In this document: positions 19,426 through 24,897 of the stretch, piece by piece
Layout of the letters: each line of letters starts with the position of its first letter
How positions within the stretch are numbered: the first letter of the stretch is position 1
Assembly (NCBI GenBank): GCA_009781495.1
Contig: WQYA01000002.1
Span: forward strand, 1 to 64,000
Reading direction: 5' to 3'
DNA from: Cystobacterineae bacterium
GTDB lineage: Bacteria > Myxococcota > Myxococcia > Myxococcales > Myxococcaceae
Length of the DNA stretch: 64,000 bases
Notes under the pieces: generated by a model
Seen by the model: the letters and a program-made list of their open reading frames with translations, nothing else
The model's database searches: none
Told to the model about the DNA's origin: nothing
Translations under genes and position numbers: made by a program

Positions 19426-19692
19426 ATGATCCGCATTCGGCCCGTCTCGGACCTTCGCAACAAATTTCCCGAAATAGAGCGTGTCGTCAACGGCGGGGAA
19501 GCCGTTTTCCTGACGAAAAACGGCTATGGGGCCATGGTTGTCATGAGTCTCGAAAAATATGCACAACTGACGGAGGACTTGGAGTTGAAGCTGAAGAAGG
19601 CCGACCGTGCTGCCGCTGCTTCTGCAGAGAGCCACAGCCACAAGACGGTTTTTTCGCGGCTGAAAAAGGGGCTCCATGGCAAAACGCGTTAG
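19426..19692 (+). CDS. Phd/YefM-family antitoxin (orphan)
   Basis: RPVSDLRNKFPEIERVVNGGEAVFLTKNGYGAMVVMSLEKYAQL. Confidence 0.85.
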   Translation: MIRIRPVSDLRNKFPEIERVVNGGEAVFLTKNGYGAMVVMSLEKYAQLTEDLELKLKKADRAAAASAESHSHKTVFSRLKKGLHGKTR

Positions 19693-19765
19693 TTTGCGCT
19701 ACCCCCCTTGCCTTCCCCCCCAAACCAAGCTAGAGTATTTTTCGGTGCTTCAACACACCACCTAG
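19676..19765 (+). pseudogene. Possible truncated toxin start (MAKRVSLRY-) interrupted at the boundary of repeat element copy 1
   Basis: ATG overlapping antitoxin stop; homology with copy 2 begins at ~19702, after 9 codons. Confidence 0.4.
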
Positions 19766-19940
19766 TAGCGGTCTTTCCGCGCCCGACAGCGTGGCTTTTT
19801 TGTGCCATTTTGGCCGGGTAGCGCGAAAGCCGAAAAACAGCCCGTGAGGGCTAAGGCCTCGGGCCGTCTACTAGCGGTGTTGAAGTACCTGGCCACCTTC
19901 TCAACAAAGGCAGCCATTCAACAACTTGCTAGTAGGAGGC
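19741..19940 (+). ncRNA. Predicted structured RNA/switch domain, copy 1
   Basis: CTAGTAG(19762)/CTACTAG(19868)/CTAGTAG(19929); CTTCAACAC(19748)/GTGTTGAAG(19877)/TTCAAC(19917); AGCCC-GTGA-GGGCT hairpin 19839-19852. Confidence 0.65.
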
Positions 19941-19944
19941 CAAT

Positions 19945-20049
19945 ATGGCTGACAACAAAATGGAAATGAATACCGGTCCACCCCCTTGGAGTTTTTTTAG
20001 TGCCCCTCGCCGCCCACCTGTTTTGAGGGTGGGGGCTCAAACGAGTTAA
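19945..20049 (+). CDS. Small ORF MADNKMEMNTGPPPWSFFSAPRRPPVLRVGAQTS inside element copy 1
   Basis: AGGAGG 5 nt upstream of ATG; conserved in copy 2 up to a 1-nt indel. Confidence 0.5.
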   Translation: MADNKMEMNTGPPPWSFFSAPRRPPVLRVGAQTS

Positions 20050-20074
20050 GAAGCCGTCATTCATGAAAACCTCG

Positions 20075-20108
20075 GCCCCCGCCTTCTTCATTGGAGGTGG
20101 GGGCTTTG
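20075..20108 (+). terminator. Intrinsic terminator-like hairpin, copy 1
   Basis: GCCCCCGCCT-tcttcattgg-AGGTGGGGGC followed by TTTGTTG. Confidence 0.7.
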
Positions 20109-20940: not shown

Positions 20941-21084
20941 GGAGTTTTCCCCTCATTTGGCAACCGTCATAACCACAGGTCAGCCTAGGCCGTTTGCAGA
21001 AAACGCACAACCCCCATCCCTACCTGTGGAGGTTGGCCCTCCCTTCCCCCCTTGCCTTCCCCCCAAAACCAAGCTATAAGCTTC

Positions 21085-21282
21085 GGCAGGTGCTGAACAC
21101 ACCTAAGACAGCGGTTTCTCCGCGCCCGACAGCGTGGCTTTTTTGCGCCATTTTGGCCGGGTAGCGCGAGAGCTGAAAAACAGCCCGCAAGGGCTAAGGC
21201 CTCGGGCCGTCTGTCTTCGGTGTTCAAGTACCTGGCCTTCCCCTTGAACAAGGGAAGTGCCTTCACCCCAAAGACAGGAGGC
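21085..21282 (+). ncRNA. Predicted structured RNA/switch domain, copy 2
   Basis: AAGACAG(21105)/CTGTCTT(21211)/AAGACAG(21271); CTGAACAC(21093)/GTGTTCAAG(21220)/CTTGAAC(21243); AGCCC-GCAA-GGGCT hairpin 21182-21195. Confidence 0.65.
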
Positions 21283-21286
21283 CAAT

Positions 21287-21409
21287 ATGGCTGACAACAA
21301 AATGGAAATGAATACCGGTCCACCCCCTTGGAGTTTTTTTAAGTGCCCCTCGCCGCCCACCTGTTTTGAGGGTGGGGGCTCAAACGAGTTAAGAAGCCGT
21401 CATTCATGA
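21287..21409 (+). CDS. Small ORF MADNKMEMNTGPPPWSFFKCPSPPTCFEGGGSNELRSRHS inside element copy 2
   Basis: AGGAGG 5 nt upstream of ATG. Confidence 0.5.
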   Translation: MADNKMEMNTGPPPWSFFKCPSPPTCFEGGGSNELRSRHS

Positions 21410-21417
21410 AAACCTCG

Positions 21418-21451
21418 GCCCCCGCCTTCTTCATTGGAGGTGGGGGCTTTG
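21418..21451 (+). terminator. Intrinsic terminator-like hairpin, copy 2
   Basis: GCCCCCGCCT-tcttcattgg-AGGTGGGGGC followed by TTTG. Confidence 0.7.
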
Positions 21452-21476: not shown

Positions 21477-21638
21477 ATGTTGAAACATAGTGTCGCCTAT
21501 GGTACTATTAAAAGTGTGAATACGGCGAAAAAGCTTTTGGGGGCCATGCGCAAAAACCCGAGGGACTGGCGCTTGACTCAGCTTCAAACGGTGGCGCGGC
21601 AACATGGAATCCGCTGGCGCCAGGAGACCAAAGTATGA
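21477..21638 (+). pseudogene. hicA: HicA-like toxin, C-terminally truncated
   Basis: NTAKKLLGAMRKNPRDWRLTQLQTVARQHGIRWRQETKV* overlapping hicB by ATGA; lacks the downstream G-S-H region typical of HicA. Confidence 0.6.
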
Positions 21639-21985: not shown

Positions 21986-22176
21986 GGTTAGCCGTTGAAG
22001 GGCCAGGGAAATACCCCAAGAGGCCCCCCCACTCCCCTAACCCCCTCCTGAGGCGGAGGCATTTTCCTGCGGACAAGCGTTTTCTTAAACGCCCTGAAAG
22101 CCACATCCACGTTGTGTTTTTTTTGGCGAATTTTATTCGCGTGCAATTGTCAACCTCTGTAGTGTTTCAAGTCATC

Positions 22177-24897
22177 ATGGCATTGGGATGGAGCGAAATC
22201 CGCAGCAGAGCGGCGACTTTCGCCTATGAGTGGCGAAACCAGGGCTATGAAAAAGGCCAGAGCCAAACTTTTTGGATTGAATTTTTTGAGGTGTTCGGCA
22301 TCAGCCAAAAGCGCGTCGCCGTTTTTGAGAAGAAAGTCAGAAAAACCGGCGGCAGCGAGGGCTTTATTGACATGCTTTGGAAAGGCGTGTTGCTCATTGA
22401 GCAAAAAAGCGCCGGAAAAGACTTGGCAAAAGCCTATAGGCAGGCGACCGAATATTTCCCCGGCCTGAGTGACGACGAGTTGCCGCGTTTTATTCTTGTG
22501 TGCAACTTCGAGCGCTTTCACCTCTATGACTTGGTGGAAGGCACGGACATGGAGTTTGCGCTCGCTGAATTGCCCTCCAAAGTGGAGCTGTTCGGCTTTA
22601 TGATCGGCTTTGCATGGGAGAAACCTTCCGAGAGTGAAAAGGTTTCCGTTGCTGCCGCTTTGAAAATGGCGAAGCTGCATGACAGCCTCAAAGCCATCAA
22701 CTACACGGGGCGCAAGTTGGAGCAATACCTTGTTCGCCTCTTGTTTTGCTTGTTTGCCGACGACACCAGCATTTTTGACAAAAACATTTTCCGCGACTTG
22801 GTTGCCGGGACAAAACCCGACGGCTCCGATTTGGCGCAAATGCTGGCGGACTTGTTTGGCCGCCTGAATACCCCGCCTGGGGAGCGCCTGAAGATGGAGG
22901 ACAAACTTTCTGCCTTTCCCTATGTCAACGGTGGCCTGTTTGCGGACACCTTGCCCATTGCAGCCTTTGACGGGCACATGCGCAAGGCGCTGCTCGACAG
23001 TTGCAGTTTTAACTGGGGGTTTATTACGCCGTCCATTTTTGGCAGCATGTTTCAAGCGGCCATGAGCGAGAAGCAGCGCCGTGAAATGGGGGCGCACTAT
23101 ACCGAGGAATCCAATATTCTTAAGGTAATCCATCCCTTGTTGATGGATGAGCTGAATGCCGAATTTGAGTTGGTCAGAAAAAACACCAAAAAGCTGCAAG
23201 CCTTTCACGACAAGTTGGCGCGTTTGAAATTTCTCGATCCGGCCTGCGGCACCGGCAACTTTCTGATTATTGCCTACCGTGAATTGCGTCGGCTGGAAAT
23301 GAGGGTGTTGGAGGCGCTCCACACCATCCACTCCGCGCATGGAACGAGCATCCAAATGAAGTTGGATGTCAAGGAGCATTCCAAAATCAACGTGGACCAG
23401 TTTCACGGCATTGAGATTGACGAGCTGGCTTGTGAAATTGCCCGCGTGGGCATGTGGCTGATGGACCACCAGTGCAACATGGAGCTTTCCAAGGTATTTG
23501 GGGGTTATTATGTGCGGCTGCCGCTGACGAAGTCCGCCGTCATTTGCCACGAGAATGCGCTGACGGTTGACTGGAACACCGTCTGCCCCGCCCATGAATT
23601 GAATTATATCCTCGGGAACCCGCCGTTTTTCGGGGCACGGATGATGGGAAAGGAGCAGAAGGCCGACCTGGAGGCTGTCATCAGCGACCCGGACGGAAAA
23701 CCCATAAAAGGCGCAGGCAACCTGGATTATGTGTCAGGGTGGTATTATAAAACAGCGCAGATCATGCGGCAAAATGCCCATATCCGCGCTGCACTGGTAT
23801 CCACCAACTCAATTACCCAGGGCGAGCAGACGGCGCTGGTGTGGAAAACGCTGATGGAGAGTTGGAAGCTAAAAATCGATTTTGCCTGCCGTACTTTCCG
23901 GTGGACGAGCGCGGCGCGGGGCAAGGCAGCCGTCCATTGCGTCATTGTGGGGTTCAGCCGGGAGTCCGTTCAGACGAAACGGCGCATATTGGACGAAGAT
24001 TTGGAAATTGCCGCAAACAATATCAGCCCATATTTGGTGGATGCGCCAAATGTGTATATTGAAAATCGGAGCAAACCGTTATGCGATGTCCCTCACATGA
24101 TTTTCGGCAATATGGCGAATGATGGGGGTCATTTCCTATTTTCAGACGATGAAAAAACGGCGTTTCTTCAAAATGAACCGAGCGCGAAAAAGTGGTTCCG
24201 CCCATTCACTGGAAGCTATGAATTCATCAATAAAGTGAACCGGTGGTGTCTATGGTTAAAGGGTATTTCACCCATAGAATTGCAAAGTTTAGCATTGGTA
24301 CGTGAGCGGGTGGCCAATGTGCGGAAACTGCGCGCCGAAAGTACACGCAATGCCACAAGGAAACTGGCAGATTTTCCGGCTCTGTTCGGAGAAACACGGC
24401 AACCGGATAGCGATTATCTGCTGGTTCCTAAAGTCTCTTCCGAAAATAGGGTGTACATTCCAATAGGGTTTATGAACAAAAATACGATTGCATCCGACCT
24501 TGTTTTTATTGTCCCTAACGCGACCCTCTACCATTTTGGCATCCTCACCTCAAATGTACACATGGCATGGGTACGGACAGTTTGCGGGCGCCTGAAAAGC
24601 GATTACCGTTATTCGGCGGGTATCGTCTATAACAACTTTCCGTGGCCGGAACCGAATGACAAACAACGCCAAGCCATAGAAACGGCAGCGCAAGGCGTGT
24701 TGGACGCCCGCGCTCTGTTTCCCGGTGAAAGTTTGGCCACACTCTATGAGCCCACCCTCATGCCGCCGGCACTTCTAAAAGCACATAACACCTTGGATAG
24801 AGCCGTCAAAAACGCCTATGGCGGCAAAGGCTTTGCAACCGAGGCCGAGCGTGTGGCGGATTTGATGGAGCGCTATCAGAGGTTGGTGGGGTGTTGA
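22177..24897 (+). CDS. MmeI-type (Type IIL) fused restriction endonuclease/adenine methyltransferase
   Basis: N-terminal D-x8-EQK nuclease motif (IDMLWKGVLLIEQKSAGKD), FLDPACGTGNFLI, LGNPPFFGARMMGKEQ, C-terminal IVYNNFPWPEPN... Confidence 0.85.
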   Translation: MALGWSEIRSRAATFAYEWRNQGYEKGQSQTFWIEFFEVFGISQKRVAVFEKKVRKTGGSEGFIDMLWKGVLLIEQKSAGKDLAKAYRQATEYFPGLSDDELPRFILVCNFERFHLYDLVEGTDMEFALAELPSKVELFGFMIGFAWEKPSESEKVSVAAALKMAKLHDSLKAINYTGRKLEQYLVRLLFCLFADDTSIFDKNIFRDLVAGTKPDGSDLAQMLADLFGRLNTPPGERLKMEDKLSAFPYVNGGLFADTLPIAAFDGHMRKALLDSCSFNWGFITPSIFGSMFQAAMSEKQRREMGAHYTEESNILKVIHPLLMDELNAEFELVRKNTKKLQAFHDKLARLKFLDPACGTGNFLIIAYRELRRLEMRVLEALHTIHSAHGTSIQMKLDVKEHSKINVDQFHGIEIDELACEIARVGMWLMDHQCNMELSKVFGGYYVRLPLTKSAVICHENALTVDWNTVCPAHELNYILGNPPFFGARMMGKEQKADLEAVISDPDGKPIKGAGNLDYVSGWYYKTAQIMRQNAHIRAALVSTNSITQGEQTALVWKTLMESWKLKIDFACRTFRWTSAARGKAAVHCVIVGFSRESVQTKRRILDEDLEIAANNISPYLVDAPNVYIENRSKPLCDVPHMIFGNMANDGGHFLFSDDEKTAFLQNEPSAKKWFRPFTGSYEFINKVNRWCLWLKGISPIELQSLALVRERVANVRKLRAESTRNATRKLADFPALFGETRQPDSDYLLVPKVSSENRVYIPIGFMNKNTIASDLVFIVPNATLYHFGILTSNVHMAWVRTVCGRLKSDYRYSAGIVYNNFPWPEPNDKQRQAIETAAQGVLDARALFPGESLATLYEPTLMPPALLKAHNTLDRAVKNAYGGKGFATEAERVADLMERYQRLVGC

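Follow-up and report, generated by a model that had tools for sequence, protein, structure and literature searches.

Probable antisense immunity modules with an sRNA-Xcc1 core, laid out like the C4 systems of P1 and P7, in a myxobacterial genome

Two copies of a repeated unit lie close to each other in the stretch of DNA analysed here (hereafter the window, 64,000 nucleotides in full), and each of them would represent, with a probability that we put at roughly 0.86, a self-contained antisense immunity module working like c4-icd-ant of P1 and P7 and like the CI-RNA region of P4. Both are solitary chromosomal copies, and they have distinct specificities. Their core is that of the RNA family known as sRNA-Xcc1 and, judging from the sequences, the sRNA-Xcc1 RNAs as a whole would be C4-type immunity modules with a core of their own, for which silencing of the following gene is predicted.

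The unit, of about 410 bp, is present four times in the 2.27-Mb draft genome (C2:19699, C2:21040, C12:17438, and C2:86548), and the window contains two of these, at C2:19699 (copy 1) and C2:21040 (copy 2). The other three copies share 79-87% identity with copy 2. The core of copy 2 is a member of RF02221 (sRNA-Xcc1) by covariance model, scoring 56.8 bits where the gathering threshold is 53, so that the unit is not a chance repeat, as the first-pass annotation had argued; copy 1 (50.5 bits) and the copies named here C12 and C2_86 score slightly under that threshold, the three lying within 50.2-52.1 bits. The parts of the module are given below for copy 2, with the equivalents of copy 1 in brackets.

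21052..21080, plus strand: promoter-like site, TTGCCT, a 17-nt spacer, and TATAAG (copy 1, 19708-19736)
21094..21103, plus strand: leader target a1, TGAACACACC, inside the GGTG...CACC hairpin, partner of a' (copy 1, 19749-19759)
21105..21111, plus strand: leader target b1, AAGACAG, partner of b', with three-way covariation (copy 1, CTAGTAG, 19762-19768)
21111..21144, plus strand: GCGGTTTCTCCGC hairpin (21111-21123), overlapping and mutually exclusive with the terminator-like hairpin at 21120-21144
21120-21144, plus strand: intrinsic-terminator-like hairpin CCGCGCCCGACAGCGTGG-CTTTTTT (listed by the terminator scan at 21120 and, for copy 1, at 19777)
21155..21245, plus strand: C4-like small RNA, the sRNA-Xcc1 core matched by RF02221 (copy 1, 19812-19902)
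21155-21163/21229-21237, plus strand: outer stem of the RNA, or P1 stem, GGCCGGGTA/TACCTGGCC, the outer helix that relatives uphold
21182-21195, plus strand: GNRA hairpin of P2, part of the core
P3, plus strand: helix whose loop carries b'
21211..21217, plus strand: b' loop, CTGTCTT, complement of b1 and b2 (copy 1, 19868-19874)
21219..21228, plus strand: a', GGTGTTCAAG, complement of a1 and a2 (copy 1, 19876-19885)
21243..21250, plus strand: target a2, CTTGAACA (copy 1, 19916-19925)
21271..21277, plus strand: target b2, AAGACAG, overlapping the Shine-Dalgarno AGGAGG at 21276-21281 (copy 1, 19929-19935)
21287..21409, plus strand: short ORF of 40 aa, MADNKMEMNTGPPP..., under the b2 ribosome-binding site (copy 1, 19945-20049, 34 aa)
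21418..21447, plus strand: terminator-like hairpin GCCCCCGCC...GGTGGGGGC 3' of the ORF (copy 1, 20075-20104)
19708..20104, plus strand: whole module of copy 1, with the specificity word CTAGTAG, different from that of copy 2

The main evidence for this reading is a 7-nt word with three sites in every copy. The word itself stands in the leader (b1) and next to the Shine-Dalgarno sequence of the short ORF (b2), and a loop of the core carries the reverse complement (b'). In the alignment of the four copies, whose flanks around these sites are near-identical, the word is AAGACAG in copy 2, CTAGTAG in copy 1, CCAATAG in C12, and ACGTAAG in C2_86; each is unique to its copy, and all three sites change together. 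A second triplet, formed by a1, a', and a2, behaves in the same way. The complementarity is that of C4, with a' and b' facing a1-b1 upstream and a2-b2 downstream, and with b2 lying on the ribosome-binding site. In 2000 shuffles of leader and target made for each copy, a three-way 7-nt word did not arise once. When the duplex energies between the loops of the small RNA and the targets were compared, the cognate copy was the best in four of four cases for both targets; over the 13 loci of the genus and of prophages, the cognate site came first in 11 for the leader and in 5 for the ribosome-binding site, partly because some loci have words in common. A pattern search with the a2-b2 pair of copy 2 found it once in its own genome and once in the sister genome G002, upstream of a different ORF.

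The remaining parts are conserved to different degrees. Equivalents of the promoter-like site are found in all copies of the genus, and as TTGACA/TATATT in an E. coli prophage, with that of copy 2 being weak by consensus and absent from the list of a general scan. The arrangement of the leader terminator hairpin is the same in P1 and P7. The hairpin behind the ORF has a short T-run and was listed by the terminator scan in copy 1 only. Regarding the short ORF, the consensus in the genus is MAD.N.E..NTGPP, with 34-40 aa, but the ORF of copy 2 is frame-shifted past codon 18 relative to the other copies, and the peptide had no match in PHROGs; evidence of coding constraint is weak, and the ORF may be non-coding. 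Inside this ORF there is a hairpin (21350-21400 in the window, and also in L007, L009, L012, and L014) which keeps its place among members of the genus and differs in sequence, with stems such as CCCACC/GGGTGG, CACCC/GGGTG, and GCGCATTC/GAATGCGC; this hints at a constraint on the RNA rather than on the peptide.

The core hairpins that had been pointed out in the two copies, AGCCC-GTGA-GGGCT (19839-19852) and AGCCC-GCAA-GGGCT (21182-21195), are found where they were placed; the exchange of one GNRA loop for another is as described, and the change of GCC to GCT facing GGC is real. Relatives support the GNRA hairpin, its closing pairs, and the a1 hairpin: the outer pair of the GNRA hairpin is C-G in 36 of 44 sequences, G-C in 7, and A-U in one, and the helix under it, here AGCC/GGCCT, is TACC/GGATA in the E. 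coli prophage. The proposed complementarity between a GGTG-loop-CACC hairpin and the GTTGAAG/GTTCAAG segment also holds, being nothing other than the a1/a' pair. Two helices did not survive the comparison. The supposed outer core helix CGCGCCCG/CGGGTAGCGCG is broken in C12 and C2_86, copies of the same genome, where CTCGCCCG faces an unchanged GCGCG, and the GTGGC/GCCAT helix overlaps the conserved terminator stem and is lost outside the genus. The RNAalifold check suggested at that stage, run on a MAFFT alignment of 44 cores, recovered the 3-bp GNRA stem only, because helix lengths vary. Single-sequence folding of the window cores does form the P1 stem, but prefers an alternative pairing over the GNRA hairpin, so this hairpin rests on comparison; the structure used here is taken from single-sequence folds together with the Rfam structure of RF02221.

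Relatives of this RNA are numerous, and most of them precede an antirepressor gene. A distant search led to the E. coli prophage PPwrbA_EC3734, where the RNA (69.3 bits with RF02221) lies immediately 5' of an AntA antirepressor; 607 of 5426 E. coli genomes have sequence similar to this region (the RNA and the beginning of ant), often to a part of it only. The exact core ATACAATACCCGNAAGGGGAA occurs in 62 stretches of GTDB genomes, from many proteobacterial groups and a few others, and a slightly longer core in at least 120 stretches of IMG/VR. Among 60 related genomes, only two others carry the RNA, both of the same genus as the source. The domains of 93 downstream proteins, some of which match more than one, include Bro-N (26), P22_AR_N (13), KilA-N (11), Rha (9), AntA (6), and SymE (1). 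Of 133 nonredundant RF02221-type loci, 109 have a three-way word of 6 nt or more, with 75 distinct words, against 14% (maximum 20%) in a control where the loops were swapped between loci; the second word site usually ends 8-11 nt 5' of a start codon, and about one fifth of the relatives, including Xanthomonas copies in which the leader site alone is retained, lack a three-way word of 6 nt. The leader terminator-like hairpin with its T-run is found in 103 of 127 relatives (4.6 in shuffles), and the upstream promoter-like site in 61 of 127 (5.7 in shuffles). Of 134 relatives folded singly, 131 form the P1 stem, whose 5' strand comes in 99 different sequences, and the internal loop of the core reads AATACAA in most relatives.

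Some of these loci show particularities of their own. In three Xanthomonas loci (L033, L036, and L048), the a1-b1 pair with the loops of the small RNA is kept, and the downstream ribosome-binding site is without a2-b2; the RNA seems to be uncoupled from the adjoining gene and may have its target at another place. Two of these RNAs (L041 and L062) lie on a single 1.3-Mb contig, JAMPER010000001.1, of a MAG labelled as Alistipes senegalensis (Bacteroidota); for a feature otherwise belonging to proteobacterial phages, this means either a mislabelled bin or a wider host range. In six loci (L104, L108, L131, L032, L081, and L142), a pair of RF02221-type RNAs lies within a span of a few hundred bases up to 2 kb, and in some of them the words differ, similar to the clustered copies reported in Xylella fastidiosa (PMC12189769). 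In G002 (L207, G002:C2:104000-122000), the modules L017 and L010 are 3 kb apart, have different b words, and each precede one of two near-identical ORFs (MAT.ETETPLRHNEDGLP.YPTRYGMRTAKE...) with no Pfam match.

The closest parallel is the C4 system of P1 and P7 (RF01695, with c4-a1b1 as RF03163). The GenBank record of P1 gives the annotated order a1, b1, c4, a2, b2, icd, ant, and the window copies share with it the order of a1 and b1, leader hairpins with a T-run, an RNA of three helices that has b' in its last loop and a' after it, then a2, a b2 that lies on the ribosome-binding site, and finally a short ORF (icd in P1). They differ from it in a longer P2, with an internal loop and a GNRA cap, and in that no ant gene follows: C4 controls a short ORF plus an antirepressor, whereas the window has the short ORF only. 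In C4, RNase P cuts at the 5' end of the P1 stem, b' covers the ribosome-binding site, and a difference of 4 nt sets the specificity of P1 apart from that of P7 (PMC5320573). The C4 and c4-a1b1 covariance models had no match in 21040-21330 up to an E of 10, nor did the RF02221 model match the c4 region of P1; in Rfam, C4 and c4-a1b1 both belong to clan CL00128, and for RF02221 no clan is listed. Because the C4 model finds nothing in the window, we do not claim membership of RF01695 and, since the covariance models do not match in either direction, our claim is limited to a shared working plan and does not extend to proven common descent.

The CI RNA of P4 has the same layout, seqA-CI(seqB)-seqC, with a seqC (TTCACAGGAGG) comparable to b2 (AAGACAGGAGG); it pairs with the flanking seqA and seqC, causing termination (PMC4825925), and it differs in acting through transcription termination of replication genes. 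This RNA matches the C4 and isrK models, whereas the window does not. IsrK of Gifsy-1, a structural homologue of seqA, precedes a 45-aa ORF and an antirepressor; like the leader described here, it ends at a terminator or reads through into these genes (PMC4825925), with the difference that the short IsrK activates in trans. Finally, sRNA-Xcc1 itself agrees with the window copies in core sequence, in its three helices, and in the GNRA hairpin. The accessible parts of the papers devoted to it describe a discrete 88-nt RNA defined by RACE (PMC2996969), and a trans-acting sRNA controlled by HrpG/HrpX, situated in Xanthomonas integron cassettes upstream of symE (PMC12444791). These parts suggest a divergent regulatory mechanism and contain no mention of C4, and flanking target sites go unmentioned in the literature searched (PMC2996969, PMC12444791); the Xanthomonas loci differ from the window copies in keeping a1-b1 and not a2-b2. 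A text joining 'Xcc1' and 'antirepressor' was absent from the searchable literature, and the link may have been recognised earlier elsewhere.

By analogy with these systems, we infer the following course of events. A single transcript would start from the promoter-like site at 21052-21080 and comprise the a1-b1 leader, the terminator hairpin, the RNA of about 90 nt, a2-b2, and the short ORF. Some transcripts may end at 21138-21144, and the resulting short a1-b1 RNA could serve as a decoy for the small RNA, in analogy with the short IsrK. RNase P probably excises the structured RNA immediately 5' of GGCCGGG. Once released, b' and a' would act in trans by pairing with the a2-b2 of other transcripts, to which they are complementary, blocking the Shine-Dalgarno sequence and turning off translation of the ORF. 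They would also pair with a1-b1 in the leader, which may free or favour the terminator. By predicted duplex energies, the different a and b words would keep the copies apart, as expected for immunity specificities.

Regarding their genomic setting, the region with copies 1 and 2 lies between nadA and nuo/mutY in a genus that we take, from the sample name, to be of termite-gut origin. Both copies flank a gene for a HARE-HTH protein, and their neighbours are a Phd/YefM antitoxin, a HicB antitoxin, and an MmeI-type restriction-modification gene. C2_86 is located between folD and metF, and C12 between a prephenate dehydrogenase gene and an AbiEii-like gene, with a Phd-like ORF adjoining the copy. 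We found no phage genes adjoining any copy, no antirepressor 3' of the window copies, no Bro-N match in the genome, and no match in a plasmid collection. The Phd/YefM ORF directly upstream of copy 1 (19426-19692) has a near-identical counterpart upstream of C12 (L005:3166-3432), which suggests a joint duplication of the antitoxin and the RNA module. Directly 5' of hicB, a 40-aa ORF (21518-21637) resembles by eye the first half of a HicA toxin, with no Pfam match, and 22099-24897 encodes the MmeI-type enzyme, a single-chain restriction-modification protein. Together with phd and hicB, this gene and the RNA modules suggest that the interval from nadA to the nuo genes is a small defence island.

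The copies had first been described as a switch with a possible pseudoknot, and a compact structured RNA with mutually exclusive pairings is upheld; more than 130 relatives point to an antisense module of the C4/CI type rather than to a switch that senses a ligand. As a riboswitch-like element acting in cis, the core would bind a ligand or protein and b' would pair with either b1 (gene on) or b2 (gene off) of the same molecule, which would suit the exclusive pairings and the conserved internal loop. This is highly improbable: the downstream genes are phage antirepressors or short ORFs and not those of a metabolic pathway, the window matches no riboswitch family by covariance models, sRNA-Xcc1 was found as a separate 88-nt RNA (PMC2996969), and the 75 different words would be left without a reason. 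The variability of the words and the antirepressor targets rule out a ligand switch as the main reading. A mobile intron or bridge-RNA-like guide, considered because the word flanks the RNA on both sides, was dropped in view of the same layout in P1, P7, and P4, where its function is known. Inspection by eye gave no convincing attC site adjoining the copies, and we discarded an integron cassette.

The same RNA mechanism could serve another purpose, namely that of an addiction module similar to type I toxin-antitoxin systems, with the short ORF as toxin and the RNA as its antisense antitoxin. The P1 record annotates Icd as an inhibitor of cell division, and a Xanthomonas relative precedes SymE (PMC12444791). 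The short ORF would also be under antisense control, among toxin-antitoxin neighbours (Phd and HicB, with AbiEii near C12). However, the peptide is hydrophilic and proline-rich, to our knowledge unlike the known type I toxins, and both its weak coding constraint and the frame-shifted second half in copy 2 make this purpose unlikely. That same frameshift, together with the lack of phage genes and of an antirepressor beside the copies, would also be expected of decayed remnants of lost prophages, recognisable and without function. This is improbable to a similar degree, since drift would have broken the six pairing segments and the leader terminator, which are intact in four of four copies, and the words differ between copies through coordinated triple changes. 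The antisense immunity module represents our preferred reading.

Family membership in Rfam and a mode of working like that of a known class are not new. Within the searchable literature, what is new is the link between sRNA-Xcc1 and C4, the presence of several solitary and orthogonal copies in one myxobacterial lineage, and a P2 that is longer and ends in a GNRA cap. The question is raised why a presumed termite-gut genus keeps several solitary and mutually distinct copies. We consider it only a tentative and rather unlikely answer that these copies, among toxin-antitoxin and restriction genes, are immunity RNAs kept by the host to silence phages, whether incoming or resident, or rival modules with the same a2-b2 word; if true, the orthogonal set would be an RNA-guided, sequence-specific barrier to superinfection, and one target of this kind would be the site in G002 where the copy 2 words recur exactly, upstream of another ORF.

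For this poorly understood family, known until now chiefly from a plant pathogen as an RNA associated with virulence, the meaning is broader. RF02221 is used to annotate 'virulence-related' sRNAs, with targets predicted across bacterial and even plant genes (PMC2996969, PMC12189769). The anatomy presented here identifies the pairing segments and their likely partner sites, which are the RNA's own leader and the start of the next gene. It joins the sRNA-Xcc1 family to the classical immunity RNAs of P1, P7, and P4, gives a phage RNA family of wide occurrence a single rule that can be tested, and would allow immunity groups to be predicted from a 7-nt word.
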